Position numbers and translations under genes: made by a program
Assembly (NCBI GenBank): GCA_030180075.1
Contig: JASNJN010000048.1
Location: 1-33,190 of the forward strand
Source: Mikrocytos mackini
Lineage: Eukaryota > Endomyxa > Ascetosporea > Mikrocytida > Mikrocytiidae
Reading direction: 5' to 3'
DNA length: 33,190 nucleotides
Notes under the pieces: generated by a model
Database searches by the model: none
What the model was told of the DNA's origin: nothing
What the model saw: the letters and a program-made list of their open reading frames with translations, nothing else
Shown here: positions 15,793-33,190 of the stretch, piece after piece
Layout: every line of letters starts with the position of its first letter
Position numbering within the stretch: the stretch's first letter is position 1

Positions 15793-18141
15793 CTATTTGA
15801 AGTGGTCATTCGTTTTCTTTAATTTTTGAGTTAAAGGAGTGATTAAGTTACTGCACTGGTATATAAATGGTCGAAAGAAGTTTATGTATCCAATTATCGA
15901 TCTTAATTGGCTTCTGTTTGATGGTTCTTTCTCCAGTTTGGGTGAGTTGAAATCAGAAAGGTCTGCCTTTTCTGTCCCATTAGAAATTACTCGTCCCAAG
16001 TACCTAATAGTTGTTTTAAAGAATTCTGACTTTCTGATGTTAACTTTTATGTTGTTGTCCTGGACGATTTTGTTCACTTTAAGGAGTAAACGATAATGAT
16101 CATCTAAAGATTCATTAGCAATCAAAAGATCGTCCAAATATATGAAAATGTCCGGTTCGTCTTTGAACAATTTTTCAATAGCACGTTGAAACGATTGAGG
16201 AGCAGTTGTGAGACCAAAAGGCATTCTTAGAAATTCGAATTGGCCTTGAGGTACTACAAAGCTCGTGTAGGGAATGGAGTTTTGTGCCATAGGTACTTGA
16301 TAATACCCTTGGGATAAATCTATTTTATAAAAGTATTTTCTATTAGATAGTTTACTAATTATACTTTCTACGTCTTTTAAAGGATAATGATCTGGAAGTG
16401 TGAATTTGTTAATTCGTGTATAGTCTATAACTAGTCTCATATCCGATGTTCCTTTCTTTTTGACTAGGAAGCCATTTGAACATATAGGTGATTCAGAAGG
16501 GCGGATAATTTGTTGTTTGAGTAGTTTTTGGATAATTGTTTCTAGTTGTGTGTTTTCATGTATTGAAAATCTGAATGGTTTGATTCTTTGGGTTGGCTGT
16601 TTGTGAAAGTCGCTATGGATCTTTATCGAGTGTTCTGTATTTGGAAATTCCCCAAGCGTTTGATTGTTAGATGAATCAGCGATTTCTTGGTAGATTTCCT
16701 TTGCTTTAATCTCGAGATTTATTGTACTTTCGTCTTTATCTGCATGTGGTGTCATTAGAAGGCTGTTTTGTTCTTCTATTTTATTTTCGTCGAAATCCCG
16801 TCTAGGTGTTGAACTCGTGTTAAGAGAGTTTATATTTGTTGTAGTTTTGGGACGATCGAGGAATGGAATTGCGAATCCTGGAAATTGTAACTTCTGGTTT
16901 CGGTAGTCTAAAGAGCATTGATGTGTTAAGAGGAAATCTTCTCCTAATATCAGTTGATCAGGTAGATTTTCATCAATGATCGCTTTTACCTTGAAGGATG
17001 TGTGAGGGTCTTCTTCGAAAGTCAGAGTTAGGAATACAAATTCTTTGTGTAACTTGACCTCACTGTTTCCGTATAGAGTTAGTTTAGGATCAGAGTGACA
17101 ATCCAAATTGTTATTAGCTATTAAGCTCTTATTAACAAGAGTGAATGAACTGCCGGAATCGACTAAACAAGGTACGTCCATAGAAACTTCTGCAATGTTG
17201 GCAAGAATTTGTGACTTGAGTTTTGAAGTGTAATCTTTTATACTCTTATGTTCCTTATCAATGTGGTTATTTCTGCCCTTCTTTTGGGCAAAACACTCAG
17301 AATCGCTATGAGTTTTTACTTTGTGAAAGTTACACCATTTCGAGTAACGAGAAGGCGTGTTGTTCCTTCGGTTGTGGGGATTGTTATTGTAACTGTGTGT
17401 TGGTGCTTTCCTGGCGTAAAATGCTCGATCGGGTCTTGCTCTAGGCACGTTATACGTATGATGAAGACTTTTAGAGATAAACAAAGAGTCATCGATCTTA
17501 ACTGCGAGTTCTTCTAAGTTTGTTGTTCGCATAATCGACGCAATCTTTTTGATATCCTCAGGAAGCGCTTTTACGAAGAACTCGAACAGTTCTCGTTCTC
17601 CAAGTTGGTCTGTACCTGATACTGTGATGTTGGCTAAGCGCTGTAGATTTCGTAACTCTTTAACGAAGTTCACTATCGTCGAGAAATCGTAGGTCTTCAA
17701 CATACTTATTTTCCTTTTGTAAAGAAAAAAATTCGTCGCAGGGAAGTAATATGTTCTAAGCATTGCGTATGCTTGTTCTAAGTTAAGTGAATCCGAAACT
17801 ATATTCTGTATATCAGGGTCCAAGGCGAGAGAAAGACAAGCTAATCCTTGTGCATCAGTCCATTTGTTAGCTGTAGTTATGGATTTGAACTGTTGGATGA
17901 AATTGGGGATGCCGTCTGGTGAAGTAGTTGTACGAAGCACGGGAAGTGTTATGCTTGGGCCTGTCACGAACTCGTTCTTGATATGGAAGGTGATTGTGGA
18001 GTCTATGCGCTGAGAGTCCAAACTTTCTTTCTTTGAGGCGGTAGGATTTGAGGAAGGATATCGATGTTGGTTTTGTCTTGATCTATCAGAAGAGAATGGA
18101 GGCGGTCTGCCATACCCTCTCTGGTCGTCGTATGAATTCAT
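15793..18141 (-). CDS. gag-protease-reverse transcriptase of retrotransposon 1, 782 aa
   Basis: Residues 1-260 are a gag-type capsid region. A zinc-knuckle-like motif WCNFHKVKTHSDSEC begins near residue 269. The retroviral-type aspartic protease active site is DSG at 328-330 (CLVDSGSSFTLVN). The reverse transcriptase follows, with RLVIDYTRIN, LRMPFGLTTAPQSFQRA and the catalytic YLDD at 668-671. Gag and pol share one frame. The ATG at 18141 lies two bases after the end of the 5' 34-bp repeat, leaving no room for an ordinary primer-binding site; this is odd. The frame ends at TAG 15795-15793, where a complete element would continue into RNase H. Confidence 0.9.
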   Translation of the reverse strand: MNSYDDQRGYGRPPPFSSDRSRQNQHRYPSSNPTASKKESLDSQRIDSTITFHIKNEFVTGPSITLPVLRTTTSPDGIPNFIQQFKSITTANKWTDAQGLACLSLALDPDIQNIVSDSLNLEQAYAMLRTYYFPATNFFLYKRKISMLKTYDFSTIVNFVKELRNLQRLANITVSGTDQLGERELFEFFVKALPEDIKKIASIMRTTNLEELAVKIDDSLFISKSLHHTYNVPRARPDRAFYARKAPTHSYNNNPHNRRNNTPSRYSKWCNFHKVKTHSDSECFAQKKGRNNHIDKEHKSIKDYTSKLKSQILANIAEVSMDVPCLVDSGSSFTLVNKSLIANNNLDCHSDPKLTLYGNSEVKLHKEFVFLTLTFEEDPHTSFKVKAIIDENLPDQLILGEDFLLTHQCSLDYRNQKLQFPGFAIPFLDRPKTTTNINSLNTSSTPRRDFDENKIEEQNSLLMTPHADKDESTINLEIKAKEIYQEIADSSNNQTLGEFPNTEHSIKIHSDFHKQPTQRIKPFRFSIHENTQLETIIQKLLKQQIIRPSESPICSNGFLVKKKGTSDMRLVIDYTRINKFTLPDHYPLKDVESIISKLSNRKYFYKIDLSQGYYQVPMAQNSIPYTSFVVPQGQFEFLRMPFGLTTAPQSFQRAIEKLFKDEPDIFIYLDDLLIANESLDDHYRLLLKVNKIVQDNNIKVNIRKSEFFKTTIRYLGRVISNGTEKADLSDFNSPKLEKEPSNRSQLRSIIGYINFFRPFIYQCSNLITPLTQKLKKTNDHFK

Positions 18142-19788: not shown

Positions 19789-22709
19789 AAGGCGCCATTG
19801 AGAACGAATTCTTAGAGATAGAACTGGACACAGGTGCCACTGTCTCATACGTAAACTCGCGAACAGCAGAATTAGGAATTCAGACGAAACTCCTACAGAC
19901 ATTGAAAACAACTACAGCAGACGGACGAGCCTTCACTGCGACTCACGCGTCCACAGTTACCTTCGGCATCACTTCGCTTCCTTCGCAAACGTTTACATTA
20001 CAGTGTTTAATTCTACCTACGCTCCCTATCGATATAAACTTAGGAATCGACTTTATGCAGTCACACGGCGTAATGGTAAATTTCAAAGACAGAACTATTA
20101 GAATAAACGATAGTGAAATAGAGATGAAGAAACAAAAACCTTTGAAAATACTCAGCGCAAACGTGAACACTCTATCTCACCCACAGCAGGAAGTAAAGAA
20201 CGAAGAGACATCAGAGTTTGACGCAGAAGAACAAGCGAAAGCGGATATTAACCGACTAATCACTCAACAACACGAAAGTAATCCCAGTCTTGGAAGAATC
20301 CCAGGAATCGAACACAAGATAGATCTTACCGAGATTCCTACAGGCGTTTCTAGGCCTTATAACATGCCATACAAACTCCAGATCTCAATGAAAGAAGAGC
20401 TGGTACGACTACAACGAGCGGGCATCATTAGAAGATCAAATTCATTGATAGCAGCGCCCGCATTCTTAGTTCCGAAACCGAATAAAAGTCCAAGATTAGT
20501 AATAGACTATCGGAACATCAACAAGCACACACGAACCGATCCTTATCCGTTCCCGAGCATTGAAAGTTTGTTTATGGGATTAAAAGAAAGCAGAATTTAC
20601 TCCACCATAGATCTACACAGCGGATACTACCAAATCCCGGTAGCTAAGGAAAGCATACCTTACACCTCTTTTGTCACAAACGACGGACAGTATGAATTCT
20701 TGCGCATGCCGTTCGTACTCAAAACGGCACCGCGCACGTTCCAACGAACTATGGAACTAATGTTGCAAGGAATTCCAGAAGTAAGAATTTACATTGACGA
20801 TGTTCTCATAGCAACCAACACACTACAAGAACACAAAAGGGTTCTAGAAGAGGTTCTAAAAAGACTACGAGACAACAAAGTGTCAATAAACTTCGAGAAG
20901 AGCGAATTCGTAAAAGAAAAGATCTCTTATTTAGGCCACATCATAGAACATGGAACTATAAAGGCAGACATAAGCAATCTTAATAAACCAAAGATACAGA
21001 GGATCCCTAAAACAAGGAAAGAGCTTCGCTCACTCATAGGGTATTTAAATTGGTTTAGGCCCTATGTTGAGAAAATGAGCTCCTTTATTGCACCACTGAA
21101 CCAGAAGCTAAAACAAAAGAGCTTTAACTGGACCGACGACGACATGAAGAATGTGGAAGCAATACAACAAAAGATTGAAAGTCAACAAACATTACATTTG
21201 CCGGACCTGAACGCACCATTCACAATGTTCACCGACGCTTCAGAGCGGGGAATAGCAGCAATACTCCTACATGAAGACAAAGTAATTCGACTATACTCAT
21301 CAAAGCTAAACGAAAGTCAATCTAAATACACAGTAACGGAAAAAGAAGCGTTAGCTGTCATTTTAGGATTAAAAGCTTTTAAGCCCATCATTTGGCAAGC
21401 ACAAGTTCAAGTGTTTACGGACAATAGGAACTTTACCTTCGACGCTCTCAAACCCAACTCAAGAGCACAACGATGGAAAGCAACATTGGGAGAATTTGAC
21501 GTGCATATAAACCACGTAAAAGGGACACAAAACGCAGGAGCAGATTTCCTATCCCGCATTTTTCTCATTACTCCAATAGAAGACAAACAATTACCCATAA
21601 GCATGGAAACATTAATTCAGAAACAAGAAGAAAACTGTGAAGAATTAAAGATTAAAACGACAACAAAAGAAATTCAATACGGAAATGTGTTACTCGACTC
21701 AAAGGAACGCATTTGTATACCTTCTAATTTCGCTAACGAATTCACAGAAAGGTACCACAAGTTCTTAGGACACCCAGGATCCACAAAATTAAAAGAAACT
21801 CTCAGACCCTACTACTACATACACAGAGTAAACGACATAATACAGGAAACCACAGAAAACTGTTTACCGTGTCACCAAAACAAAAGTCAAACGTCAAAGA
21901 AAGGAAAAGTAGAAGGACACATCGAGTCAGAGGGACCAAGATGCAGAATATCGAGCGATATTTTCGGTCCAATAGATTTGCAAGAGTTTCAAGGTTGTGG
22001 AAAAGCATTCTTACTCACAATAACGGACATTTTTAGCAGATACTCTATTGTTCGCGTACTAGAATCTCCAAACACTGAAGAGATGGTCAGGGAAATACAG
22101 ACTAGTTGGATAGACGTATTCGGAAAACCTAAAAGCCTTCTAACAGACAACGGGACATGTTATACAAGTGACGAGATGATAAAATACTTAAAGAACATGA
22201 AGATAAAACCGGTGCATTCGACTCCTTATAACCCTACAGGAAATTCGCTCAGTGAAAGAATCAACACGAGCTTGGGGAACATACTGCGTATCGAAAAAGG
22301 AAAACCGATAAAAGAAGTTTTGGAAATTACGGAACGTTTCTGGAATTCTACAGTGAACAGAACTTTAGGAGATAGCCCAGAACAAATATTCTTAAGGAGA
22401 ACCAAAGTAGATCCTTTTAGCACTAGAATAAAGTACGACAATCAGGAGTTAAAGAGAAGAGTACTTTCAGAAGCAAAGAAAACTGAAAGGAATACGAACA
22501 AACGTAGAAAAGAGTTTTCTTTTGAAAGAGGAATGGAAGTACTTGTAGCCAATAGGAACAGAAAGAAGTTAGACCCCTACTGGAATGGACCATGCAGAGT
22601 CTTAGACATCAGTGAAAAAGGAAATAGCTTAAAACTTGACTCAGGACGAAGAACATTTTGGGAAAACATAAAGCAAGTAAAGTTCTTTCGAAAAGAAGGG
22701 GTAGAATGA
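19722..22709 (+). CDS. protease-RT-RNase H-integrase of retrotransposon 2
   Basis: The frame is open from 19722, overlapping gag by about 67 nt in another frame; the first ATG at 19902 is too late because the protease Asp (DTG, codon 19827-19829, ELDTGATVS) lies before it. The domain order is protease, then RT (RLVIDYRNIN, YIDD at 20790), RNase H (FTMFTDASERGIAAI), and integrase with HHCC (HKFLGHPG...CLPC), Asp in SSDIFGPI, Asp in LLTDNGTCYTS and Glu in NSLSERIN. The usual MPFGL of the RT reads MPFVL (GTA at 20715-20717), a change at a strongly conserved Gly that may inactivate the enzyme. Fusion to gag may have been by frameshifting, or the offset may be another mutation. Confidence 0.9.
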   Translation, partial: QFTKNSYRNARTSIIYTERVSLKGAIENEFLEIELDTGATVSYVNSRTAELGIQTKLLQTLKTTTADGRAFTATHASTVTFGITSLPSQTFTLQCLILPTLPIDINLGIDFMQSHGVMVNFKDRTIRINDSEIEMKKQKPLKILSANVNTLSHPQQEVKNEETSEFDAEEQAKADINRLITQQHESNPSLGRIPGIEHKIDLTEIPTGVSRPYNMPYKLQISMKEELVRLQRAGIIRRSNSLIAAPAFLVPKPNKSPRLVIDYRNINKHTRTDPYPFPSIESLFMGLKESRIYSTIDLHSGYYQIPVAKESIPYTSFVTNDGQYEFLRMPFVLKTAPRTFQRTMELMLQGIPEVRIYIDDVLIATNTLQEHKRVLEEVLKRLRDNKVSINFEKSEFVKEKISYLGHIIEHGTIKADISNLNKPKIQRIPKTRKELRSLIGYLNWFRPYVEKMSSFIAPLNQKLKQKSFNWTDDDMKNVEAIQQKIESQQTLHLPDLNAPFTMFTDASERGIAAILLHEDKVIRLYSSKLNESQSKYTVTEKEALAVILGLKAFKPIIWQAQVQVFTDNRNFTFDALKPNSRAQRWKATLGEFDVHINHVKGTQNAGADFLSRIFLITPIEDKQLPISMETLIQKQEENCEELKIKTTTKEIQYGNVLLDSKERICIPSNFANEFTERYHKFLGHPGSTKLKETLRPYYYIHRVNDIIQETTENCLPCHQNKSQTSKKGKVEGHIESEGPRCRISSDIFGPIDLQEFQGCGKAFLLTITDIFSRYSIVRVLESPNTEEMVREIQTSWIDVFGKPKSLLTDNGTCYTSDEMIKYLKNMKIKPVHSTPYNPTGNSLSERINTSLGNILRIEKGKPIKEVLEITERFWNSTVNRTLGDSPEQIFLRRTKVDPFSTRIKYDNQELKRRVLSEAKKTERNTNKRRKEFSFERGMEVLVANRNRKKLDPYWNGPCRVLDISEKGNSLKLDSGRRTFWENIKQVKFFRKEGVE

Positions 22710-22840
22710 CGCAGCTGTCTATTCTTCAATAGACAATGCATCCTATTTCGGAATACAGGGGCAGGAATAGGATAAGTAAAAGTAAATAAAAATAACATTT
22801 TAAATTTCACAAAAAATATGACAATATTTTCTTTACGTCA
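22707..22840 (+). repeat. candidate 3' LTR of retrotransposon 2
   Basis: The segment begins TGACGCAGC at the pol stop codon and ends CTTTACGTCA, giving inverted TGACG/CGTCA ends. As in element 1, the LTR would overlap the stop codon and end in ACGTCA. No 5' copy exists to confirm it, and the GC-richer sequence up to about 22940 could also belong to it. Confidence 0.4.
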
Positions 22841-23009
22841 CAGACGTCCATCCGGAACACCAGCGGACCGTAAACGTAGCAAATCAGCCGACTATCTAAC
22901 GCTACCCGTTTCAACGACATCGGCCGGCTACGACACTGAGAAACAACATATATCGTGAACCATAAAATAATGATAAATATTTTATATATGTAAAATCAAA
23001 CNNNACANA
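22841..23009. other. spacer with N bases upstream of the serpin
   Basis: GC-richer sequence to about 22940, then A/T-rich sequence with ambiguous bases at 23002-23004 and 23008. The serpin frame runs leftwards into these N bases and has a stop at 22974-22976, so its true start is not resolved here. Confidence 0.5.
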
Positions 23010-24068
23010 CTCATAAGCTCGTACCTGTCAACTCTAACGGGGAATGATTCATTCTTCGGCGCAAGTAGTGCTATGGAAGTTTATTACACAATCTGTGAAG
23101 GTTTATCAGACTTAGCGCTCGAAGAAAGCGTTAAAAGCTTCCCATTTTCATCATTAGAAAGCGACTCGAGTATTAAGAAACTGGGATACTTTTTTGACGT
23201 GCCGGAAAAGCTTTCAACACTCAGCAGTTGCATACTTACCAAGCCTGTTCAACTTAAGCCTGCATTTCTTGATAAAGTCAACAACCAATATGGATTCAAG
23301 ACCATTCCATTATATGACAGGCCTGAAGACCAGCAGCTAGCCTTTTGCAACGATCTGATATACAAATACACAAAACAGAAAATAAAAGACTTCTTCGATT
23401 CGCTCGCAGACTTCAAAAACAGTGCTTTCATTTTGTTGAACATTGTGCATTTCAAACTGGCCTGGTTAAATGAGTTCGAAACAAAAGATACAGTTGAGAA
23501 GCTGTTTGATGACAGAATCAAGGTCCAAATGATGAACATGACAGAGCGTCTTTTTTACTATAGGGAAAAGGAATTTCAAATGTTCGAGAAGGGGCTTGAA
23601 TCTGGACTCTCCATGTTTTTCGTAAGGCCTGAAAGTGACGTACTGTCTTTAATAAAAAGTATAAATTCAAAAGAAGGGGCGTTTGGTGCATTTATCAATT
23701 CGTTCCACCAACACAAGGCCAAAAGACACTGTCACATTGAAGTCCCTAAATTCGAAATCAAGACCAGGAATGACTTGGTGGGACTGTACCAGGAAAACGG
23801 AGTAAACAAAATGTTTGAATTTGGTGGGAATCTAAGCCGGATGACAGAAGAGGATTTAAAAGTCGGGAAGTTTCTACAAGAAGCCTATATTGATTTGAAC
23901 GAAGCGGGGATCGAAGTAGCCTGTGTAACTGCGGCGATAATGATGATGAGGGCCTGTTTTGGGAAACCTGAATTCGAAGAGGAAATAGTTTTGGATAAGC
24001 CTTTTATTTACGGGATAATGAAAGAAGAAACAGTGCTATTTGTAGGGGTTTGCGCCATGCGAAAGTAA
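23010..24068 (+). CDS. serpin, 5' end unresolved
   Basis: Serine-protease-inhibitor fold. Family features include FILLNIVHFKLAWLNEF (breach/helix F region), VQMMNM, SMFFVRP, VPKFEI and LDKPFIYGI before the end. From the first ATG (23073) the product is 331 residues, but the frame is open upstream to 23010, and those codons (LISSYLSTLTGNDSFFGASS) align with the serpin N-terminal segment normally reading like 'NVFFSPLSISSAL'. The real start is therefore upstream, in or beyond the N bases. The hinge reads EAGIEVACVTAAI, with P14 Ile instead of the usual Thr; counting from it predicts P1 Arg293 (in ATG-based numbering) and P1' Ala, a trypsin-like target. No signal peptide is visible, which may be due to the missing start. 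Serpins are reported from some microsporidia. Confidence 0.88.
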   Translation, partial: LISSYLSTLTGNDSFFGASSAMEVYYTICEGLSDLALEESVKSFPFSSLESDSSIKKLGYFFDVPEKLSTLSSCILTKPVQLKPAFLDKVNNQYGFKTIPLYDRPEDQQLAFCNDLIYKYTKQKIKDFFDSLADFKNSAFILLNIVHFKLAWLNEFETKDTVEKLFDDRIKVQMMNMTERLFYYREKEFQMFEKGLESGLSMFFVRPESDVLSLIKSINSKEGAFGAFINSFHQHKAKRHCHIEVPKFEIKTRNDLVGLYQENGVNKMFEFGGNLSRMTEEDLKVGKFLQEAYIDLNEAGIEVACVTAAIMMMRACFGKPEFEEEIVLDKPFIYGIMKEETVLFVGVCAMRK

Positions 24069-24195
24069 GTAATGTGAATGTTTATACTGTTGATGTTCTG
24101 CTGAAGTTCCATACACCCTTGGGTTATTTGCTCATTCTAAACCTAGTGTAAATTCGAAACTGAAAATGTTGATTTTTTATAAAAGTAAAATTTAA

Positions 24196-24654
24196 ATGAA
24201 TCAAAAATCTTTGAAAGAAATTGAAAATACAATCGACACAAAGCAAATACTCTACGATTTTACGAAAAATGAAACCACCCGGGAATTCGACACTAAAATT
24301 AACACGGTTAAAGCACGCTACAAACATGGAATTGACATTTTATTCACCGAGATTAAAAAAGTTGTTAGTTTGATACGAAAGCTGGAACGCGATGAGAAAG
24401 TGAGGAGGATTAAAGTAAATGTCAATTCACACACATACAAACACAGGAACGCAAAAAAGTCGAGTTTTGACATAATGACTGAAAAGAAGAAGGATGACGA
24501 CACAAACCTCAACATTTCGATTGTAAAATATATGCTGCCCAAATTAAAGACCGACGCACGGGACCTTAAGAAGGACGACGACAGGGTATTGGAGTTAAGC
24601 AAAAAAGAGTTGAAGGAGGACATGTATCTCATACACATGGCGAAGAAAAGTTAA
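24196..24654 (+). CDS. hypothetical charged protein, 152 aa
   Basis: Not recognised. The protein is very rich in Lys, Asp and Glu, mostly helical in appearance, with likely short coiled coils around residues 1-70 (LKEIENTIDTKQILYDFTKN, then IKKVVSLIRKLERDEKVRR) and again near the C-terminus. It has no Cys-based motif, signal peptide or membrane segment. The ATG follows TAAAAGTAAAATTTAA, the A/T-rich leader seen at other starts here. Its TAA (24652-24654) overlaps by 4 nt the original stop of the convergent CPSF30 gene (24653-24651). Confidence 0.65.
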   Translation: MNQKSLKEIENTIDTKQILYDFTKNETTREFDTKINTVKARYKHGIDILFTEIKKVVSLIRKLERDEKVRRIKVNVNSHTYKHRNAKKSSFDIMTEKKKDDDTNLNISIVKYMLPKLKTDARDLKKDDDRVLELSKKELKEDMYLIHMAKKS

Positions 24655-24834
24655 TTAGGTTTGTTTTTGTTCAGGAGGCTATCTATATCGATTGTATTGT
24701 CACAGTTTTGGATGCTGTGTCCAATGGACCGGCATCGCAAACAGAAGAACGGAGGGAAACTGTTCCCTTTAATATTCTTCCCAACGTTTACCGCCATTTG
24801 TGGAAGTTCAAATTTGGGGTGCCCCTTTTTGCAG
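24651..24834 (-). pseudogene. displaced 3' end of CPSF30: finger-5 His and zinc knuckle
   Basis: Read on the minus strand from the target-site copy (TGC AAA AAG GGG CAC), this segment gives CKKGHPKFELP. That supplies the His missing from zinc finger 5, followed by the HPxFELP block typical of CPSF30. It continues to a CCHC zinc knuckle, CLRCRSIGHSIQNC (C-x2-C-x4-H-x4-C), and ends at TAA 24653-24651. It is cut from the rest of the gene by the 247-bp MITE. The frame is uninterrupted, so the insertion is probably recent. Confidence 0.9.
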
Positions 24835-25081
24835 GTCAGGTCTATTTACGCTAATTTTTAAAAAAACCATTTTTTATTAGGAAATTTACCCTTGAAATTT
24901 TTTGGTGCGAAAAATTTTTTGTCGACTTTTTATTAAAAAGTCGCCACAAACCCCACAAATTGCCCAATTCGACTGGTTTTGACTAAAAGCAGCATGCTAA
25001 CACAATGCTAACGACATACTTGTCGTACGGGTATAATTGTCTTCTATATGAAAAATAAAAGTTAGCGTAAATAGACGCGAC
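24835..25081. mobile_element. 247-bp MITE inserted in the CPSF30 gene
   Basis: The termini are inverted repeats: GTCAGGTCTATTTACGCTAA on the left and, reverse-complemented, GTCGCGTCTATTTACGCTAA on the right. An 11-bp direct repeat, CCTTTTTGCAG, flanks it at 24824-24834 and 25082-25092. A target duplication of that size is typical of Mutator-like elements (9-11 bp). No coding capacity. With one target copy the net insertion is 258 bp (86 codons), but the inverted repeat itself supplies an in-frame TAA to CPSF30. Confidence 0.9.
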
Positions 25082-25559
25082 CCTTTTTGCAGTCTGCTCC
25101 GTTCGGACAAAAGCCGGCCATATAAAGCTCGCAGATTTCTTTCCTTATGTGTCTGTTCTTACAGTTGGGACCGTGTTTGCAGAAACCCCTGTTGTACCAG
25201 AAGCAGTCCAATGAACGGGCAGAGTGCTGGTCGTGTATAAATAGACAGTCCGGATTTTTGCACTCTCCTGTTGAAAGGAAATTGCTGCAAGAGGGCATTC
25301 TAGAAGGACAGTAGATGTGGAGAAATTCGCAGCCCATATCTTTCCTGCACACTCCCTTCAGCCATAGTTTACATACGACTGTCTTCTCATTCCTTTCATG
25401 CCGTAATGTACATTTTGAACCCAGGAAACACTGGTTCTGTAGATAGTATTTACAAACCCCTCCGTTTTTAACCTTAAACTCCTCGAATATTTTATTACAT
25501 ATGTCGTCTATTTTGGCTTGTACTGTTTTCGGAAATTGCCAGTGTTCATTTTGTGACAT
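25062..25559 (-). CDS. CPSF30 / Yth1 polyadenylation factor, truncated by MITE
   Basis: Zinc-finger subunit of the cleavage and polyadenylation complex; the family binds the AAUAAA signal and Fip1. Five CCCH fingers appear in order: CKYYLQNQCFLGSKCTLRH, CKLWLKGVCRKDMGCEFLH, CSNFLSTGECKNPDCLFIH, CFWYNRGFCKHGPNCKNRH and the incomplete CELYMAGFCPNGADCKKG. The inter-finger DCFWYNRGFCKHGPNC closely matches animal and fungal CPSF30. The MITE at 24835-25081 replaces the final His by Arg and ends the protein five codons later (GRVYLR, stop in the element's terminal repeat). The first ATG is at 25559; an upstream TTG would overlap the divergent protease start. The truncated protein of 165 residues may be partly functional, since yeast Yth1 lacks the knuckle, but finger 5 cannot form normally. 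Confidence 0.93.
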   Translation of the reverse strand: MSQNEHWQFPKTVQAKIDDICNKIFEEFKVKNGGVCKYYLQNQCFLGSKCTLRHERNEKTVVCKLWLKGVCRKDMGCEFLHIYCPSRMPSCSNFLSTGECKNPDCLFIHDQHSARSLDCFWYNRGFCKHGPNCKNRHIRKEICELYMAGFCPNGADCKKGRVYLR

Positions 25560-25572
25560 CAGAAAAATTAAA
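25560..25572. promoter_or_regulatory. 13-bp gap between divergent start codons
   Basis: Only CAGAAAAATTAAA separates the ATG of CPSF30 (25559, minus) from the preferred ATG of the aspartic protease (25573, plus). Each gene's promoter must therefore lie within the other's coding region, and their transcripts probably overlap at the 5' ends. Confidence 0.6.
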
Positions 25573-27048
25573 ATGGAAATTTTTAGAAACGTGCGCAACT
25601 ACTCTTACAGAGCCGGGTTGGCGTTCTGTCTTTTAATAACTGCATTTCTACCAAGAATAACAGCCGTGGAAGAAGAAAAGACCTTTTCAGTGCGTGACAT
25701 ACCTCTTTTCATAGAACAAGATTCTGACATCGTAACCAGAATACACGATATGGAAATAAGAGATAATCTACACATCAATTTTCACCACAAAAGAGCGTTA
25801 CATAGGGAGTTGAAGAAAAGAGCAGAAGGGGGAATGGCCCAATCGAACGAGTACAAGATTGTTGGCATGCCGAGTGATATGGTCAGTGCGGCTTTCTTAG
25901 TCATCGGCAGTGACACAAAGGGTGAAAAGGTGATTATGGACACTGGCAGTCATCTACCAGTTTTGGCCCTGCCAGAATCGATACAGGGAGAAAACGCTTT
26001 CATTCCTCTTGATGAAGAAAGTTTGAAGAAGTTGAAAAAGAACAGTTTCGAGTGGGTTTATAAATGCCCGGCGTTCTTTATGAAAGGGTTTTCGTGTGGA
26101 AAGGAAAGGTACGGGTCTGGAGGCGTCAATTCAGTTATTGTTCAAGGAAGGTTTGGGTTCAGAGAACCGACGGAAAAGGATTTTGAGAAGAATAAAGAAT
26201 ACTATGATGATGGAAACACATCCCTGCAAGCCATGTCAGGGAATGCGGCTAGGATTAAAGGCGGTGTGGGAGCAGATGGGTTTGTGAACACGGCGATACT
26301 CTTCCAACTGAACACTATATACGGGCAGTCTCCACTGGGGATTCTCGGGCTCAGTTTCGGGAAGAACGGCTTTGATGTTAACCCATTCTTGACTGCACTT
26401 GACTTGAAGAAGAAAAACTTTATGTTTCAAAGCACAAATAGCAAAGTACATGAAGGAAAGCAAGACATTAGCATTAAGTTTGGGGTCGACTATAACAACG
26501 ATGATTACCATTGGACTGAGTTTACAGGATATTACAAACTATTTTCGATGTTCAATTTATACAGTGTGGGAGCTCAAAGAGGTGCTTATAGGAGAGCAGA
26601 CGATCCGATATTCGACGATATCAAGGCTAGTAATGTTATATTTGATTCAGGAACCAACGTTTTAGTGCTGCCAAAAAGTATAATAAAAAACCTAGTTAGC
26701 GATCTAATAGGAAGTATGTCAGATAAAGTCGACTTGAAGAAACTTGACCAACAAGGAAAGAGCTACCAATTATGTTGGGAAGCTGGGAACGGTGTTAAGA
26801 TGTTAATAAGGCTGAAGGAGTTTGCTTTAGAAGTGGATCTGGACTTAATAGGAATTTATAGAATTAAAAAAGGCGGGGTGGTTACTACGTGCAACTATAT
26901 ATTGGAAGATTCGTTTGGCGTTGTACCTGTTGGGTTCAGTTTATGGCACATGTTTGATGTGATTTGGGATTCAGATTTTAAAAAGGTGGGATTCAAACCT
27001 GGACAACAATGTGAAAACAATAAATGCAAAATACTGGAGTATAATTAA
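25573..27048 (+). CDS. secreted pepsin-family (A1) aspartic protease, 491 aa
   Basis: Endopeptidase with two catalytic Asp. From ATG 25573 the product starts with a signal peptide (basic RNVRNYSYR, hydrophobic AGLAFCLLITAFL, possible cleavage after ITA). An upstream in-frame ATG at 25501 lies inside CPSF30 and would bury the signal peptide, so I reject it. A propeptide-like segment runs to about residue 85. The first active site is VIMDTGS (Asp123) and the second VIFDSGT (Asp358), at a spacing normal for bilobal A1 enzymes. GILGLSFG and VVPVGFSLWHMFDVIWD are further family blocks. Cys near residues 162-172 and at the C-terminus could form disulfides. Likely acts outside the cell or in the secretory path. 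Confidence 0.92.
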   Translation: MEIFRNVRNYSYRAGLAFCLLITAFLPRITAVEEEKTFSVRDIPLFIEQDSDIVTRIHDMEIRDNLHINFHHKRALHRELKKRAEGGMAQSNEYKIVGMPSDMVSAAFLVIGSDTKGEKVIMDTGSHLPVLALPESIQGENAFIPLDEESLKKLKKNSFEWVYKCPAFFMKGFSCGKERYGSGGVNSVIVQGRFGFREPTEKDFEKNKEYYDDGNTSLQAMSGNAARIKGGVGADGFVNTAILFQLNTIYGQSPLGILGLSFGKNGFDVNPFLTALDLKKKNFMFQSTNSKVHEGKQDISIKFGVDYNNDDYHWTEFTGYYKLFSMFNLYSVGAQRGAYRRADDPIFDDIKASNVIFDSGTNVLVLPKSIIKNLVSDLIGSMSDKVDLKKLDQQGKSYQLCWEAGNGVKMLIRLKEFALEVDLDLIGIYRIKKGGVVTTCNYILEDSFGVVPVGFSLWHMFDVIWDSDFKKVGFKPGQQCENNKCKILEYN

Positions 27049-27528
27049 ATGTTAAATATAAATCGTCGTGGAAAAGTTATATATTAAATTTGTTTCTAAA
27101 ACATTGATAAGACTGGGATTGTTTTTCTGATTTTTCGAATTATTGGTATAATTCGATCATTATCGCCAAAATCTTCTATTTAATTTAACAAATTTTAAAA
27201 ATGAATTGAATAAATTTTTGGTTTTAGATAGCGTTCGATTTTGTAATGTTATGTCATAATTAGAAATTCGTTGTATAACACCAAAAACTACAAACCTAGT
27301 ACGATATATGGTTCTTATAAAATTATAACATGATTAAATAAGAATCTATAGACATTGTATTTAATGCAAAAATTATCTTGAAATGGAATGGAATACAACG
27401 GTATTTCTTTTATAATCGAAACTAATTATAAATTCCACCCATGTTTGCTTCTGATCTACTCATTAAATTATACGCCCCTCAACACATTCATTGGGGTCTG
27501 GTTCTATTTTTGTTGTCGCTTCGGCGAT
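27049..27528. other. AT-rich spacer downstream of the protease
   Basis: A/T-rich with stops in all frames except a short non-conserved frame from 27388. I see no gene or repeat here. Confidence 0.4.
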
Positions 27529-28000
27529 TTAACTGGCCTGATCATTTTCATGGCCGTTGATTTGCGCCCTATTTTCAAATCCTCGTTCATTTTTACCATG
27601 ATGTGTCAGACATGTTGATGGCCGGGTGTTTGTCTCTAAATGCTGATTTGCGACAAGCGTCTTGAGCCTTTCAGTGTAAACTGTTGACGCTCTATCTCTT
27701 TCGTCAATTTTAGAGTATCCACATTCGAGGTGAAACATTGGTATATCTGTAGTGACCATTTGATGGTCACGTTCGGAATCTTCCCGTATAGTTCAGCTGT
27801 GAGTTTTGGGGATATCCTTGTATCTCCTTATGTGAGTTCGATTTTCCTCAACCTAAATACGTTTCTGTGCGCTACACTCAAGATGGCTCCCAGATATCCA
27901 ATGAAGACTACTCTGCAGTCTACTTGTGACCTCTGTACCACTTAGTTACCATGTTTGTGGTTTTATGGTAATTTTTGACTTTCTCTTCCTCATTGCAAAC

Positions 28001-28305
28001 CAGACATGAGAATAACCGACCCGATCAGGTCGGGTTCGGGCGGAAGAAGGACCGAAAATCGCTAAAAATTCTCAACAAATCGTGAAACATAAAAATAATG
28101 AAAATAAAATAATATAAACTTCAGATATACATTCCAGCAATTAAGCAAACGTGGGAAAGATTCCCAACGGAGTATTTGGAGTCTTAGGTCTAAAAAAAAT
28201 TGAACACCCACTTATATTTCGAGGTAAATTTAAACAGAATTTTGAAATTACATGATAAATTACTACCAAAAAATTTATATTTTCTACCCAAAATTCTCAT
28301 GTCTG
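28001..28305. mobile_element. hAT MITE, CAGACATGAG family, copy 2, perfect 8-bp target duplication
   Basis: The ends are CAGACATGAGAAT and ATTCTCATGTCTG. The left subterminal part (CCGACCCGATCAGGTCGGGT, GGCGGAAGAAGG) closely matches copy 1 at 4852-5219. It is flanked by TTGCAAAC at 27993-28000 and 28306-28313, an exact 8-bp direct repeat. The right GC-rich block of copy 1 is missing. It interrupts the endonuclease part of the non-LTR remnant. Confidence 0.88.
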
Positions 28306-28484
28306 TTGCAAACAGTTAGGTCTTCAGCCGAAACACCGACCTCTACGACTGTTATTCGCTTCTTGGCTTTGTCTATACATATGAAATCCGGCTGTTGTAC
28401 TGTTTTATGGGGCCCATCGAATTTTCATATTTCATAGGAAATAACTTTTTCTCAGAATAAGTTTATATGGTGTGAAAATTATTA

Positions 28485-29082
28485 CAGTCAAACCTCGATA
28501 AGCTTTACAAAGTCCCGTTTTTCTCCATGTTTTGTAAATCTTATGTGTAGTTTTGGATTTTTTCACGATACGACCGGGATTTTGTAAAACTATAAATGAA
28601 TATTTTATGTATTTCTCAATTATAAAACAGATGTAATCCATGGATCTCACAATTATGATAAATTTTTATTTCCTCAAGAGTATAAATGACAATTTTTTTA
28701 TGATTTTGCACTACGCTATAGCTTATAAATTTTATTATAAGATGTTCTAAATTAGCGCTAACATCTCTATTTATAGTCAAATTATACTTAGAATATTGAA
28801 CCAAGATTTTTCGTTGGAATATTTTTGATAAAATAAATTTTATCCGAGTGTAAATCTTAAGAAAAAAAATATTTTCCAAATTTTGATAAATGAATTTCTA
28901 TGCTATTTTAGCACTTAATTAATACTTATTGAGTCAAGTTCACATAATTTATGCACAATCGGGTGATTATTGAGTCATTTTCCGAAAAATAATTTTCGGA
29001 AAATGGTCGAAAATAGGTGTTTTTTGTAAATCTTACATGTGTAAATCTTAGAAAATTTGTAAATTTTATCGAGGTTTGACTG
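28485..29082. mobile_element. pogo/Tigger-like MITE with TA target duplication
   Basis: The ends are CAGTCAAACCTCGATAA and its reverse complement, with TA directly outside both (28483-28484, 29083-29084). CAGT...CCTCGAT termini and a TA duplication are typical of pogo/Tigger elements of the Tc1/mariner superfamily. The left interior (GCTTTACAAAG) and the right interior (AATTTACAAA in reverse) extend the similarity imperfectly. Short frames inside show no transposase motif. It lies within the non-LTR remnant. Confidence 0.85.
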
Positions 29083-29720
29083 TATATCGGTTTCAGTCGC
29101 TTTTAACGCTAATAATTTGTTTGTTTTTTGAACATTTTGAAAAATAAACATCAATTGGCATTTTCAGTCTGGTTCTATAGTTGTAGGCCCAATTTATCAA
29201 AAAATTTAAGCACTGAACCAAAATAGATCGAAACCAAACCCAGAACGTTGTTTATGAGTTCGAAATCTACGCATTAAGGTCATATAAATGTTTATTTTTA
29301 ACATATTTAAAAAGTTATTTCCTAAAAAATACGCTGTGTGGCCCGTTGCCAACAACAACTCTTTGATTAAGTATTAACTTGGAGTGTTTAGGGGTTCTTA
29401 CTAGCCTTGCCCAAGTGTCTTTCAAGAAAAATTATTGACCAAGTCATGGTAGGCTCTTATCTCATTTGCAATCATTAGGACTACCGCGTCGTGTCTGTCT
29501 TTAAGCAGACTGAACTACATGGCTGGGCAGCTACCCAGCATGTGTCCTATTGTTCCTTTCCTCGTGTAGCATCTCCCACAGGTGTTGGAAATGGTGGGGT
29601 CGATCACCTTCTGGTTTCTACAAATTGCATATGTTGTAAAACACAAAAGGGTTCGCGGAACCAGGGAAAACTTTTGGGTCTTGTTTTTTATATTAAAAAA
29701 TATAGATATTTTCATTATTG

Positions 29721-30291
29721 TCCGATATGGAGTTGTTTCTCAACAATACAACCAACTCCGAATATAACGAAGTTTATCAAATTAGAGCAGTTTTCTTTTA
29801 TAATTTTGTTCGGATATACTAATTATCGCCGATAACAGGATAGCGGAATTTTACCGAATTTGGAAATTGGGGTTTACTATCTTTGGAATCTTTTTGAAAC
29901 ACAGAAATTATATTATGCATATTAGACACATATATTTGGCTAGTATTAAAACTTACCATAGAATGGCTTAATACAGGTTCAAATAAAACTGACCAAATTT
30001 TTACCAAGTAGTAAAAATTTTCAAATAGGCCACATTTTTCTGAAACATCCACGTTTAAATTCTATTATTTTGGTTTAACCATATTATATTTTGATATTAA
30101 TAGTTTTTATTCCCACTTCAAAATATTTATTATATTCGGATATTTTGCTGTAATTTATTGGAAAATTATATTCTTAAAATCAAAGGTCGGTTGTTTTACA
30201 ATCGATTACGATATACTACATATCTAGGTTTGACCTGTAAAATTACTAATTGTTTGATACTTCACTCAAGTTTTAAAATTTAAAAACTTAA
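29721..30291. other. AT-rich spacer
   Basis: Stops in all frames; only short frames. The last 30 bases (TTTTAAAATTTAAAAACTTAA before the ATG at 30292) look like the leader of the next small gene. Nothing else is recognised. Confidence 0.4.
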
Positions 30292-30531
30292 ATGTTAGAG
30301 AATACTCTGGGTGATATTTTGAAAACCATAGAACTCAACAATACAAACCAGCTGTTCAAAACAGTGTTCGCCAACTTAATACTTCTCAACGATAATGCTT
30401 TCACACAAGACCCAAGTATAATGGAAGACGTTGATGAATTAAAAATCCATATGTCGGTATTAAAGATAATAGCGGAAATTTTATCGCGTTTCTTCAAAAA
30501 AGAATCTTGGATGTGGTTTAAAGGCTCTTAA
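30292..30531 (+). CDS. possible small protein, 79 aa
   Basis: Not recognised. The product is almost entirely helical in appearance, with leucine/isoleucine heptad-like spacing (LGDILKTIELNNTNQLF, then VLKIIAEILSRFF), suggesting a small coiled-coil or subunit-type protein. The ATG follows an A/T leader (TTTTAAAATTTAAAAACTTAA) like those of the solid genes in this window. Isolation within transposon-rich DNA and short length lower the confidence. Confidence 0.5.
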   Translation: MLENTLGDILKTIELNNTNQLFKTVFANLILLNDNAFTQDPSIMEDVDELKIHMSVLKIIAEILSRFFKKESWMWFKGS

Positions 30532-31129
30532 CATTACATTTAACTGTAAAATGCGTTGTACAAGTGAGTAAAAGTATAAAATCATCTTTAAACAACACAT
30601 AGAGATATAATATTTTACAATTGAATTTAAAAATCACCCCGAGATAATTTTATCTGCCAACTATACTACAAGAACGGCTTGTAATTTTGAAACTATTGCT
30701 TCTAAGAAAAAAAAAATTTTAGAAATTATTTACAAATATCGCAAAGTGAGACCGTCAACACTGTATTATATTATAGAAAATTTTATTACTAATAGAATAA
30801 AAGCGGTATTGATTTTTGATTAGGGGATAGAATTACCATAACGTTTCTTCGAAATTATGTGTCAAATATTACGGGATGCGAAATAGAATATTTCTTTATA
30901 TACGCATTATATAGATAATATCGGCGTATTAATAGCTCTTAGTGCAGAACCTTTGTTGTCCAGTGTTGAAAAATTCAGACATTTCTGTAAACATGCAACA
31001 TATAAATTAACCAACCTTGATCTGGCATTGGTTGTTTTCGGAAAATTTCAAAATGTAAACAGTTTCAATTAACTGTCCTTTTGTGGTTAAATCGTAAAGT
31101 TTGGCGACGTATATTTGGTGTATTAATAG
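30532..31129. other. AT-rich region, possibly part of a decayed transposon
   Basis: No open frame of note. It lies upstream of Mutator-like transposase fragments on the same strand and may be more decayed sequence of that element, but I cannot show this. Confidence 0.3.
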
Positions 31130-31309
31130 TTGAAAAAACTATTTTGGGTAAAAGAAATCCGACTCGTGCCTGAAGCGGTAATTGCGGATAATGCGCTTGC
31201 AATCACCAGTGCAATGGGAAATAGTTTTCTCGAAACCCAACATATTAATTGTTGGACACATATTGCTCGCAAATTTAGAGCAAAAAACAAAATGATGATC
31301 CTGATATGA
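31130..31309 (+). pseudogene. Mutator-like (MULE) transposase fragment
   Basis: The open frame reads LVPEAVIADNALAITSAMGN and, continuing, FLETQHINCWTHIARKFRAKN. The order 'Asp-x-x-x-Ala-(Leu/Ile) ... C-W-x-H-(I/V)' is the MULE transposase pattern around its second catalytic Asp and the C/H motif. It ends at TGA 31307-31309, and there is no start. Further coding-like sequence continues with frame changes to about 31480. Only a small part of a transposase of 500 or more residues remains. Confidence 0.55.
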
Positions 31310-31579
31310 AAAAATGATTATATGAAGGCATACTTCTTTTACATAGGGATTATAAAAGAAAGATATTCACTAAGACGTTACTAGTGTTTAATTTTTATTG
31401 GAATTCATTTAAACATTTTACACTGTCTATATCTTATTAAAAAATTATGTGAAACGAAATTCAAATTGTTTTCAAGTTTGTAATTTGTGGTGCGGAATGC
31501 CAAATAATTCATTAGCAGGATTACATACAAGTTATTTAATATTTTATTCGACGATTGGAACTACTTTTAGCAGACGAAA

Positions 31580-31909
31580 GTGAAAAATACAGCACTAAAG
31601 ACTTCAATGAAAGGTACAATCTTGCATACTAATACAAAGGAAGACAACCATAAATTCGATGTTCATTTGCTGGACAATAACGAAACGGTTTTCTATTATT
31701 ACTTGAAGCGACAAAATCAACAAACACAAACTAATGAAATATCAGTGGAAAGACTATGGCAGCTTGTTGTCAGAGAGGATAATTTTAATAGCTTAGTCGA
31801 ATTTAAAAAGTTTATTATATGTCCCGTTGTTGTTCATCAAGCGGTTGCCCCAATGAATGGAACAGTTTTTACTGTTCCGGGTACTTGTCAAGAAGTACGG
31901 AAAATGTGA
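31580..31909 (+). pseudogene. open frame, probable tail of the MULE remnant
   Basis: A 109-codon frame without a clear ATG at its start (GTG at 31580; the first ATG is a few codons in). It contains a segment (ISVERLWQLVVREDNFNSLV) that looks protein-like and ends in MNGTVFTVPGTCQEVRKM. The position, a few hundred bases downstream of the transposase fragment on the same strand, suggests the C-terminal part of the same transposase. I see no SWIM-type zinc motif, so the link rests on position alone. Confidence 0.3.
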
Positions 31910-32450
31910 TCACGTTTTCTTTCTGGTGGAAAGATATTTGCATGGGAAGGAGTTGAATATTATAAAAGGAGGTCATTTAACAGAGAAAATACATGGCGAA
32001 TATGAGGTAACGGATATTTAGGGAGAAAATTGGAGCGTGTTGGTTAAATATTATATTATATTCTATTACAACAATCATAACCATATATTTATTGAATTTA
32101 AAGTTTGAATAAATCTTGTTATATATTTTCCTTTTAAAACTATCATTTATACGCCCATGACTTTGTTAATAAAATCAGGATTTATATGTATTTTGTTTTA
32201 AAATGGTTTTATATTATAAATGAACTTAACTTTAATGTTTCTTTGCGACGACACAAAATTACTTAAATAGAGTCTATTTTGCTGTTTTCCTTGTTTCATC
32301 TTTGTTTTGTGTTAGTTTTTTTGGAAATGTTGTTCAGAGAATCCCAGGCTCTTGCTTTATGTTAGTTCGATTATTTTCAAAATTTTAAATGACACAGAAC
32401 ATCACACATAAAACGGGATAACCTAACATCACCTACACACTCACTTTGGC
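31910..32450. other. AT-rich spacer
   Basis: I see no gene, structured repeat or transposon end that can be defined here. Confidence 0.4.
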
Positions 32451-32640
32451 GCTAAATTCCCTATTTATACGTTATTTAGAGATAAAATAGTCAAATATGT
32501 CGGGAAAACAGAGGTTAAATTATACAAAGTCATCACAACCAAATTTGCGTCGAGTTATAATGAATTTAAGACTGTGAGCAATGAACCCAATGTCCGCAAG
32601 AAGCGAAAATATTACAGGCTAAACTACGAATGCGATTAAG
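32451..32640 (+). pseudogene. short coding-like remnant
   Basis: About 62 codons stay open without a start codon (KFPIYTLFRDKIVKYVGKTE to KKRKYYRLNYECD, TAA at 32638-32640). The basic KRKYYRLNYEC ending is faintly like the N-terminal WRKY/FLYWCH-type zinc domain of MULE transposases, but one Cys is not enough to claim it. It may also be chance. Confidence 0.25.
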
Positions 32641-32842
32641 GACACGAACGTGAATCTATATCTGGTCAGAAAAGAACTCGAACAAAGAAGATAGTCTTCA
32701 GGTTTCTTTTAAAATCATTTCAACAGGATCTAGTTTAATTAATACAGACATAGCCACTCACGACTCACATCCACTAGTCAGCTTTATCAAGAAGAAGTTT
32801 AACGAAGAAAAATGAAACAAATTGAAGTAGGAGAAAAGATGC

Positions 32843-33190
32843 GGGCTACAATTGAATCTGCCTCAAAAGTGTGTAAATTGCCTCAAAAATGTGTGTTTGC
32901 CTCAAAATCTTGTGTGTGCCTCATACGACTTTAAAATATACCCCAATCCTTTAAAATTCCGTTTCTTTTAGATATTATCTATATCTATCCTACAATTTGC
33001 CATAAACGTTTTCAAAGTAATATAAAATAAATTTATGTGTTATGTAATGAAAATTTTCCGAAATTCAATTTTTCCATGTAACGTAGAATAAATATCAAAA
33101 TCGGAGTTTTTCTAGAAAAGTTTCTCAAACGAAGATCGCTCAGATTGCTCAATACAACGTTTAAAATAAATTAGAAGTCTTATTTCAACA
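32843..33190. mobile_element. GCCTCA-repeat element, copy 2, cut by window end
   Basis: Reverse-complement match to 5660-6023. It starts GGGCTACAATTGAAT, has four GCCTCA spaced about 17-20 bp (32868-32930), then matches through TCCTACAATTTGCC and TATAAAATAAATTTATGTGT to CAACGTTTAAAATAAATT at the end of the window. It is diverged by scattered substitutions, so this is an independent copy, not an assembly duplicate. Confidence 0.75.

Follow-up and report, generated by a model that had tools for sequence, protein, structure and literature searches.

The CPSF30 gene of the oyster parasite Mikrocytos mackini (Rhizaria) is interrupted in the draft genome inside its fifth zinc finger, very probably by a miniature inverted-repeat transposable element (MITE) of the Mutator-like element (MULE) type that inserted recently, duplicated 9 bp and cut the product to 165 residues. 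The gene lies on the minus strand of the 33,190-nucleotide stretch analyzed here (contig JASNJN010000048.1, positions 1 to 33,190; hereafter the window) and is, by its sequence, clearly a CPSF30 ortholog. The break falls between the third cysteine and the histidine of finger 5, and the translation shows that the locus as assembled can encode only a 165-residue CPSF30 with fingers 1–4, a finger 5 without its histidine and no zinc knuckle. The insertion is ordinary in kind; its interest comes from the gene that was hit, from the apparent haploidy of the parasite and from an intron system that appears unable to hide the damage. The parts of the locus, in the direction of the gene, are as follows:

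25062..25559, minus strand: 5′ part of CPSF30, an open reading frame (ORF) of 165 residues with fingers 1–4 and three cysteines of finger 5, followed by an end derived from the element
25083..25091, no strand assigned: copy of the target-site duplication CTTTTTGCA, 9 bp
24834..25082, no strand assigned: MITE of 249 bp, GGTC...GACC, well supported as MULE-derived and delimited by comparison of copies
25056..25082, plus strand: one arm of the terminal inverted repeat, 27 nt, 89% complementary to the other
25064–25062, minus strand: in-frame stop codon TAA, inside the 27-nt terminal repeat of the element
24834..24860, plus strand: other arm of the terminal inverted repeat, 27 nt, 89% complementary to the first
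24825..24833, no strand assigned: copy of the target-site duplication CTTTTTGCA, 9 bp
24651..24833, minus strand: 3′ part of CPSF30, with the duplicated CKK, the native GH, the FELP block, the CCHC knuckle and the stop codon TAA at 24651–24653

The 5′ part matches human CPSF4 residues 32–158 with an E-value of 7.7e-41, its best solved relative, and is 45% identical to a predicted protein of 213 residues (P0001). Its 159 native residues end in CKK (...CELYMAGFCPNGADCKK) and are followed by six residues, GRVYLR, and a stop codon from the element. Past the element the frame restarts as CKKGHPKFELP... and includes the CCHC knuckle (24833–24654), the 3′ part reading as the duplicated CKK, then GHPKFELPQMAVNVGKN...CLRCRSIGHSIQNC...SLLNKNKPN; 29 of 57 residues are identical to P0001, which has both parts of the gene. 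The histidine that the element cuts off from finger 5 is invariant in all eight aligned homologs; instead of five CCCH fingers, the assembled gene has four complete ones and a fifth without this residue. Thus the gene resembles CPSF30/Yth1/CPSF4 in its intact fingers 1–4, in its orthology by sequence and in a C-terminal knuckle as in animals, and differs from them in stopping inside finger 5. Searched separately, the C-terminal piece gave no candidate in the protein collections; against solved structures it gave only weak viral-protease matches (best E 0.01, among the best 60 of 293), which we take as chance. The initial annotation of the window had already placed the cut between the third cysteine and the histidine of finger 5, drawn the stop from the terminal repeat and seen the frame resume with the histidine, the FELP block and the knuckle, and on these three points our results agree with it.

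The inserted element and its family

Genome searches covered 733 contigs (13.6 Mb) of the M. mackini draft assembly, all above 10 kb as far as seen; the published assembly comprises 16,018 contigs and 49.7 Mb and is described as highly repetitive (PMC10245619). Statements on copy number consequently refer to ~27% of the assembled bases. The element has at least 36 matches in these contigs, the CPSF30 copy included, and this recurrence elsewhere in the genome, without which the transposon reading of the initial annotation would have been weakened, bears that reading out. Of the 30 loci returned, 26 were inspected for copies with both ends, and 17 rows qualified. Two of them (L012 and L013) represent one copy on a palindromic contig, which leaves 16 copies, and two others (L001 and L002) share flanks, which leaves 15 distinct sites. 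A 9-bp target duplication is exact in 13 of the 17 rows and has one mismatch in three; the remaining row, L005, fits 8 bp. Counted by distinct site, the duplication is exact at 11, has one mismatch at three and measures 8 bp at one. These copies also correct the dimensions first given for the CPSF30 insertion, 247 bp for the element and 11 bp for the duplication. A duplication of 11–12 bp was considered and rejected, as the other copies resolve it into 9 bp extended by end bases of the element that happen to match.

Empty sites provide direct evidence that the element is mobile. Around copy L010, four paralogous repeats (on contigs C717, C465, C4 and C105) align on both sides of the insertion and lack the element, and the junction with a single TGGTCCATA, the 9-bp target, was displayed for three of the four. 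For the CPSF30 copy itself, no empty site was seen in the searched contigs.

The MITE (249 bp only) carries no transposase of its own. Two loci, however, share its tips over 27 nt at 92–96% identity (L033 at both ends, L041 at one) and in addition contain an ORF of 724 residues. The best Pfam match of this ORF is the ZSWIM1-3 RNaseH-like domain PF21056 (E 2.6e-15 and 9.6e-15 for L033 and L041, respectively), and the same stretch matches the MULE transposase domain PF10551 (E 2.3e-11 and 8.2e-11), all over cut-off. In L033 the tips lie 4.2 kb apart (about G000:C100:28718–32921) and each terminal repeat spans 962 nt, the two being 100% complementary. Target duplications of MULEs measure about 9–11 bp. 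We file the element as a MULE-derived MITE, an assignment well supported by the tips in common with the transposase-encoding L033, the 9-bp duplications and the many copies; the MITE reading was thereby not only confirmed but made more exact. The element resembles MULE MITEs in being short and AT-rich, with terminal inverted repeats, 9-bp duplications and tips in common with a MULE-transposase element of the same genome. It differs in that only its terminal 27–31 nt are common to the autonomous element found, the internal part having failed to align with L033. Both end-sharing loci whose ORFs were scanned (n = 2) proved to be MULE, no search having been aimed at Merlin transposases; Merlin-like MITEs with 8-bp duplications have been listed (PMC4405373). 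In M. mackini, 346 genes with MULE transposase domains have been annotated (PMC11069148). The other end-sharing loci, L034–L040, carry other frames.

The scheme we propose is that a non-autonomous Mutator-like MITE, probably mobilized in trans by an L033-type MULE transposase, landed in finger 5 of CPSF30. The insertion duplicated 9 bp, and the terminal repeat stops the frame six residues in, leaving a coding capacity of 165 residues with fingers 1–4. On the evidence of the literature and of a frame test, the splicing system of the species, with introns of 16–17 nt, would not be expected to remove the element.

The insertion is recent, judging from its identity to copies at two other sites and from its exact duplication. 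Over the element, the CPSF30 copy (L004) shows no difference from L001 and L003; zero differences in 249 sites correspond to a divergence of at most about 1.2%, and the mean pairwise divergence among 14 element rows (the 17 less the duplicates L002 and L013 and the divergent L024) is 2.5%. The initial annotation had derived recency from the intact tail of the gene. Its conclusion stands, and the tail itself is weak evidence: 17 of 540 possible single substitutions create a stop, and with substitutions alone considered the tail would stay open with a probability of ~0.75 at 5% divergence.

Two further copies of the MITE lie in long frames. L010 (G000:C136) sits inside a frame (288 codons before, 19 after) that by eye resembles a Tc1/IS630-type transposase. 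L005 (G000:C248, ~1501–1749), flanked by an 8-bp duplication, likewise interrupts a long frame, with 100 codons ahead of it and 165 behind, and is oriented relative to this frame as the CPSF30 copy is to its gene; the upstream frame continues beyond one stop, and no other place in the searched genome matched its flanks over more than ~36 bases.

Ways in which the parasite may cope

Two explanations of how the parasite lives with this insertion have about equal odds, polymorphism and a tolerated truncation. In the first, the insertion is not fixed and other cells or lineages of the sample keep an intact, functional CPSF30, a reading to which we give somewhat less than an even chance. The element is young, as its identity to copies at two other sites indicates, and the downstream CPSF30 frame is intact. 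The sequenced DNA came from parasites pooled and purified from laboratory-infected oysters (PMC10245619, Methods), which makes a mixed population realistic, and presence/absence polymorphism of MITEs is documented in Nosema bombycis (PMC4405373). A possible second version of a nearby place was also found: contig C636 (21206–21544, L076) ends in 339 bp that are 99.7% identical to window positions 23005–23343. Upstream of this end, the serpin frame runs on in C636, whereas in the window a retrotransposon precedes the join, which is marked by Ns. The Ns lie at 23002–23004 and 23008, exactly where C636 diverges, and the window has none from 23009 to 33190. The discrepancy reflects either a misjoin in the window or two versions of the place in the sample; it is a warning about the assembly and possibly a sign of a mixed sample, although the CPSF30 stretch itself is untouched.

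Against polymorphism, a 5-kb DNA query did not bring up the CPSF30 stretch in any other version within the 13.6 Mb searched (it also matched C17, C239 and C362 within 22506–22939, and C16 at 27423–27489), and the occupied form sits on a 33-kb contig, with nothing to mark it as an obvious minority. In addition, k-mers have been read as haploid for most of the genomes studied in a recent comparison, in which two exceptions are named, M. mackini not among them (PMC11069148). M. mackini is thus probably haploid, and if that reading is right a heterozygous insertion is unlikely, leaving as candidates a mixed population, another copy outside the searched contigs or a tolerated truncation.

In the second explanation the insertion is fixed in the isolate, and the 165-residue protein suffices for polyadenylation, perhaps less efficiently; this too we place below an even chance. 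Finger 1 is described as binding CPSF160-WDR33, fingers 2 and 3 as reading AAUAAA together with WDR33, and fingers 4 and 5 as binding Fip1 (PMC9512404). As the product retains fingers 1–3, with the CPSF160/WDR33 and AAUAAA contacts, and finger 4, which in yeast is the main site for Fip1, its activity as CPSF30 should be reduced and not lost. The genome codes for a Fip1 domain (PF05182, E 1.9e-19, over cut-off; among 14 control genomes one gave a match, below cut-off). The CPSF_A family profile had no match in the genome and none in any control, and is therefore uninformative. Yeast Yth1 without finger 5 and the C-terminus is reported to have its Fip1/Pap1 binding lowered and not abolished (PMC8559680), and human mutants with a single Fip1 site are reported to retain polyadenylation at a reduced level (PMC9512404). 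The knuckle is described as absent from yeast Yth1 and as unnecessary for assembly of the complex (PMC9512404, PMC5760199), and plant CPSF30 is described as lacking fingers 1 and 5 and the knuckle (PMC4496715). These natural proteins resemble the M. mackini product in lacking the knuckle (both) or finger 5 (plants), but they are long-established forms, whereas the M. mackini form arose by recent insertion and is only putatively in use. The initial annotation had called CPSF30 essential in other eukaryotes; this is not universally so, an Arabidopsis CPSF30 null mutant having been grown and studied, with lower fertility among its phenotypes (PMC4496715).

Other published results speak against a tolerated truncation. 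A yeast finger-5 deletion is cited as defective in polyadenylation in vitro, and deletion of the knuckle from human CPSF30 as lowering cross-linking to AAUAAA RNA (both PMC5760199); an experiment with human fingers 1–4, taken up below, has the same tendency. The C-terminal block, moreover, is conserved with P0001, which suggests that it was under selection until recently.

The element itself carries two AATAAA motifs in the sense of the CPSF30 gene, and these might give the short mRNA its 3′ end, although in AT-rich sequence their occurrence could be due to chance. We offer tentatively, as somewhat unlikely in its entirety, the picture of a probably haploid parasite that lives on a MITE-shortened CPSF30, having lost the second Fip1 site and the knuckle in one step, with the element providing the stop and perhaps the mRNA 3′ end. 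If fixed, the insertion would be a natural experiment on a minimal CPSF30 in a eukaryote, observed while the loss is still fresh, in a genome that is swamped by transposons and for which no Argonaute or Dicer is reported as identified (PMC10245619). If polymorphic, it would place movement of MULE MITEs in M. mackini in the very recent past, and would provide a presence/absence marker for strains. The reads deposited by the authors of the genome could decide between fixed and polymorphic.

It is unlikely that a second, intact CPSF30 resides in the unsearched part of the assembly and that the interrupted gene is a dispensable copy. The searched 13.6 Mb leave room for one in a published, highly repetitive 49.7 Mb. 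However, three queries (the 5′ piece, the 3′ piece and P0001) identified no paralog in the searched part, where P0001 gave one further, weak match of 24 residues (E 0.018) on C167; the several copies that the initial annotation had considered thus come down to a single locus in the contigs covered. A re-assembly by another group measures only 15.4 Mb (PMC11069148), so that much of the 36-Mb unsearched remainder may be repeats, and the size gap between the searched contigs and the full assembly is suggested to be largely of this nature.

Misassembly at a repeat, by which the element would have been joined into CPSF30 artificially, is highly unlikely, if slightly less so in view of the doubtful join that this contig shows at 23002. 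Suspicious joins occur elsewhere in the assembly. The flanks of L033 are unequal, and the presence of ATCAAAGCC both in its left flank and in the right flank of L041 (contig C617) points to a chimeric join or to two insertions having recombined. Contig C280 (62–3086, L047) opens with a 1.4-kb inverted repeat, 99.5% identical and with one MITE copy per arm, and this palindrome may be either real or an artifact. At CPSF30, in contrast, both flanks belong to the same gene in register, the exact 9-bp duplication is typical of the family and the surrounding stretch is free of Ns; a misjoin driven by a repeat would connect different loci.

Splicing, and the points against the insertion reading

Excision of the element as an intron, as reported for Nosema bombycis, is very unlikely given an intron system of 16–17 nt and the outcome of the frame test. 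The genome encodes spliceosome parts (Prp8 and U6), and in N. bombycis seven single-copy genes with MITEs are reported to have transcripts without them (PMC4405373). The two cases are alike in that the gene hit by the MITE is coding and single-copy and the organism an intracellular parasite, though the two organisms belong to different supergroups, but the MITEs of N. bombycis are reported to be spliced out, which the introns of M. mackini make very unlikely there: among 224 predicted introns, 217 are 16 bp and seven 17 bp long (PMC10245619), and the element does not fit this rule. It has stops in all three frames. Only two GT–AG segments of 16 or 17 nt occur in the element and the 40 bases on either side, and none of the four combinations of these segments opens the frame to the native stop. 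Nor is the element distributed as an introner would be, as three of the 15 distinct sites (CPSF30, L005 and L010) lie in long frames and the best open runs at the other 12 span 36–112 codons.

The U6 snRNA deserves separate mention. Its sole reported match (G000:C124:5457–5555, L051) reads ATAAAGAGA, where the canonical U6 box is ATACAGAGA; in the M. mackini form an A replaces a C that is nearly universal at its position, and this change could bear on the recognition of 16-nt introns.

Several observations weigh against a recent MITE insertion that shortened the product. Within the limits of the script used, six long GT–AG pairs (240, 252, 267, 300, 321, and 330 nt) keep the frame, and the mildest of these, the 252-nt pair, whose 5′ site has four of the six bases of the canonical hexamer, would keep the knuckle; from sequence alone, long introns are not impossible. 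No M. mackini CPSF30 protein is among the eight matches at E ≤ 1e-20 in the protein collection (91–289 residues; best identity 49%). The Prp8 of the same genome, in contrast, agrees at all 501 compared residues with a transcriptome-derived protein under a GAHX accession, a prefix that we take to denote the M. mackini transcriptome; a microsporidian origin, which the gene density had suggested, was rejected on this match among others. As the Prp8 of the species is in the collection and its CPSF30 is not among these eight matches, there is no sign of CPSF30 expression. The occupied form of the site was observed in a single assembly, whose doubtful join at 23002–23008 lies at a distance of 1.3 kb from the CPSF30 3′ end. 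Finally, human CPSF30 reduced to fingers 1–4 is reported to be impaired in Fip1 binding, with residual binding in one assay, and finger 5 is called necessary (PMC5760199). With regard to the six pairs, none between 240 and 330 nt equals the inserted 258 bases; exact GT–AG removal of these bases was considered and rejected, being absent among the frame-keeping pairs. The pair with the best 5′ site (five of six bases of the canonical hexamer) would take out most of finger 5 together with the last part of finger 4. Our search for literature was limited to papers naming both Mikrocytos mackini and CPSF30, and found none.

Neighborhood of the locus

The genes that surround CPSF30 in the window are the following:

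24196..24654, plus strand: convergent ORF of 152 residues without a Pfam match, overlapping the stop codon of CPSF30 with its end
25573..27048, plus strand: divergent aspartyl-protease-like gene (PF00026, E 6.3e-05)
23073..24068, plus strand: serpin gene (PF00079, E 7.8e-43), its profile matched from position 80, the N-terminal part missing

The mechanically called ORF of the aspartyl-protease-like neighbor starts at 25501, and a second in-frame ATG lies at 25573. The window also contains two pol frames of retrotransposon type. The first (20055–22709, plus strand), with reverse transcriptase, RNase H and integrase domains, ends 1.9 kb from CPSF30; the second (15793–18141, minus strand) has a reverse transcriptase domain.

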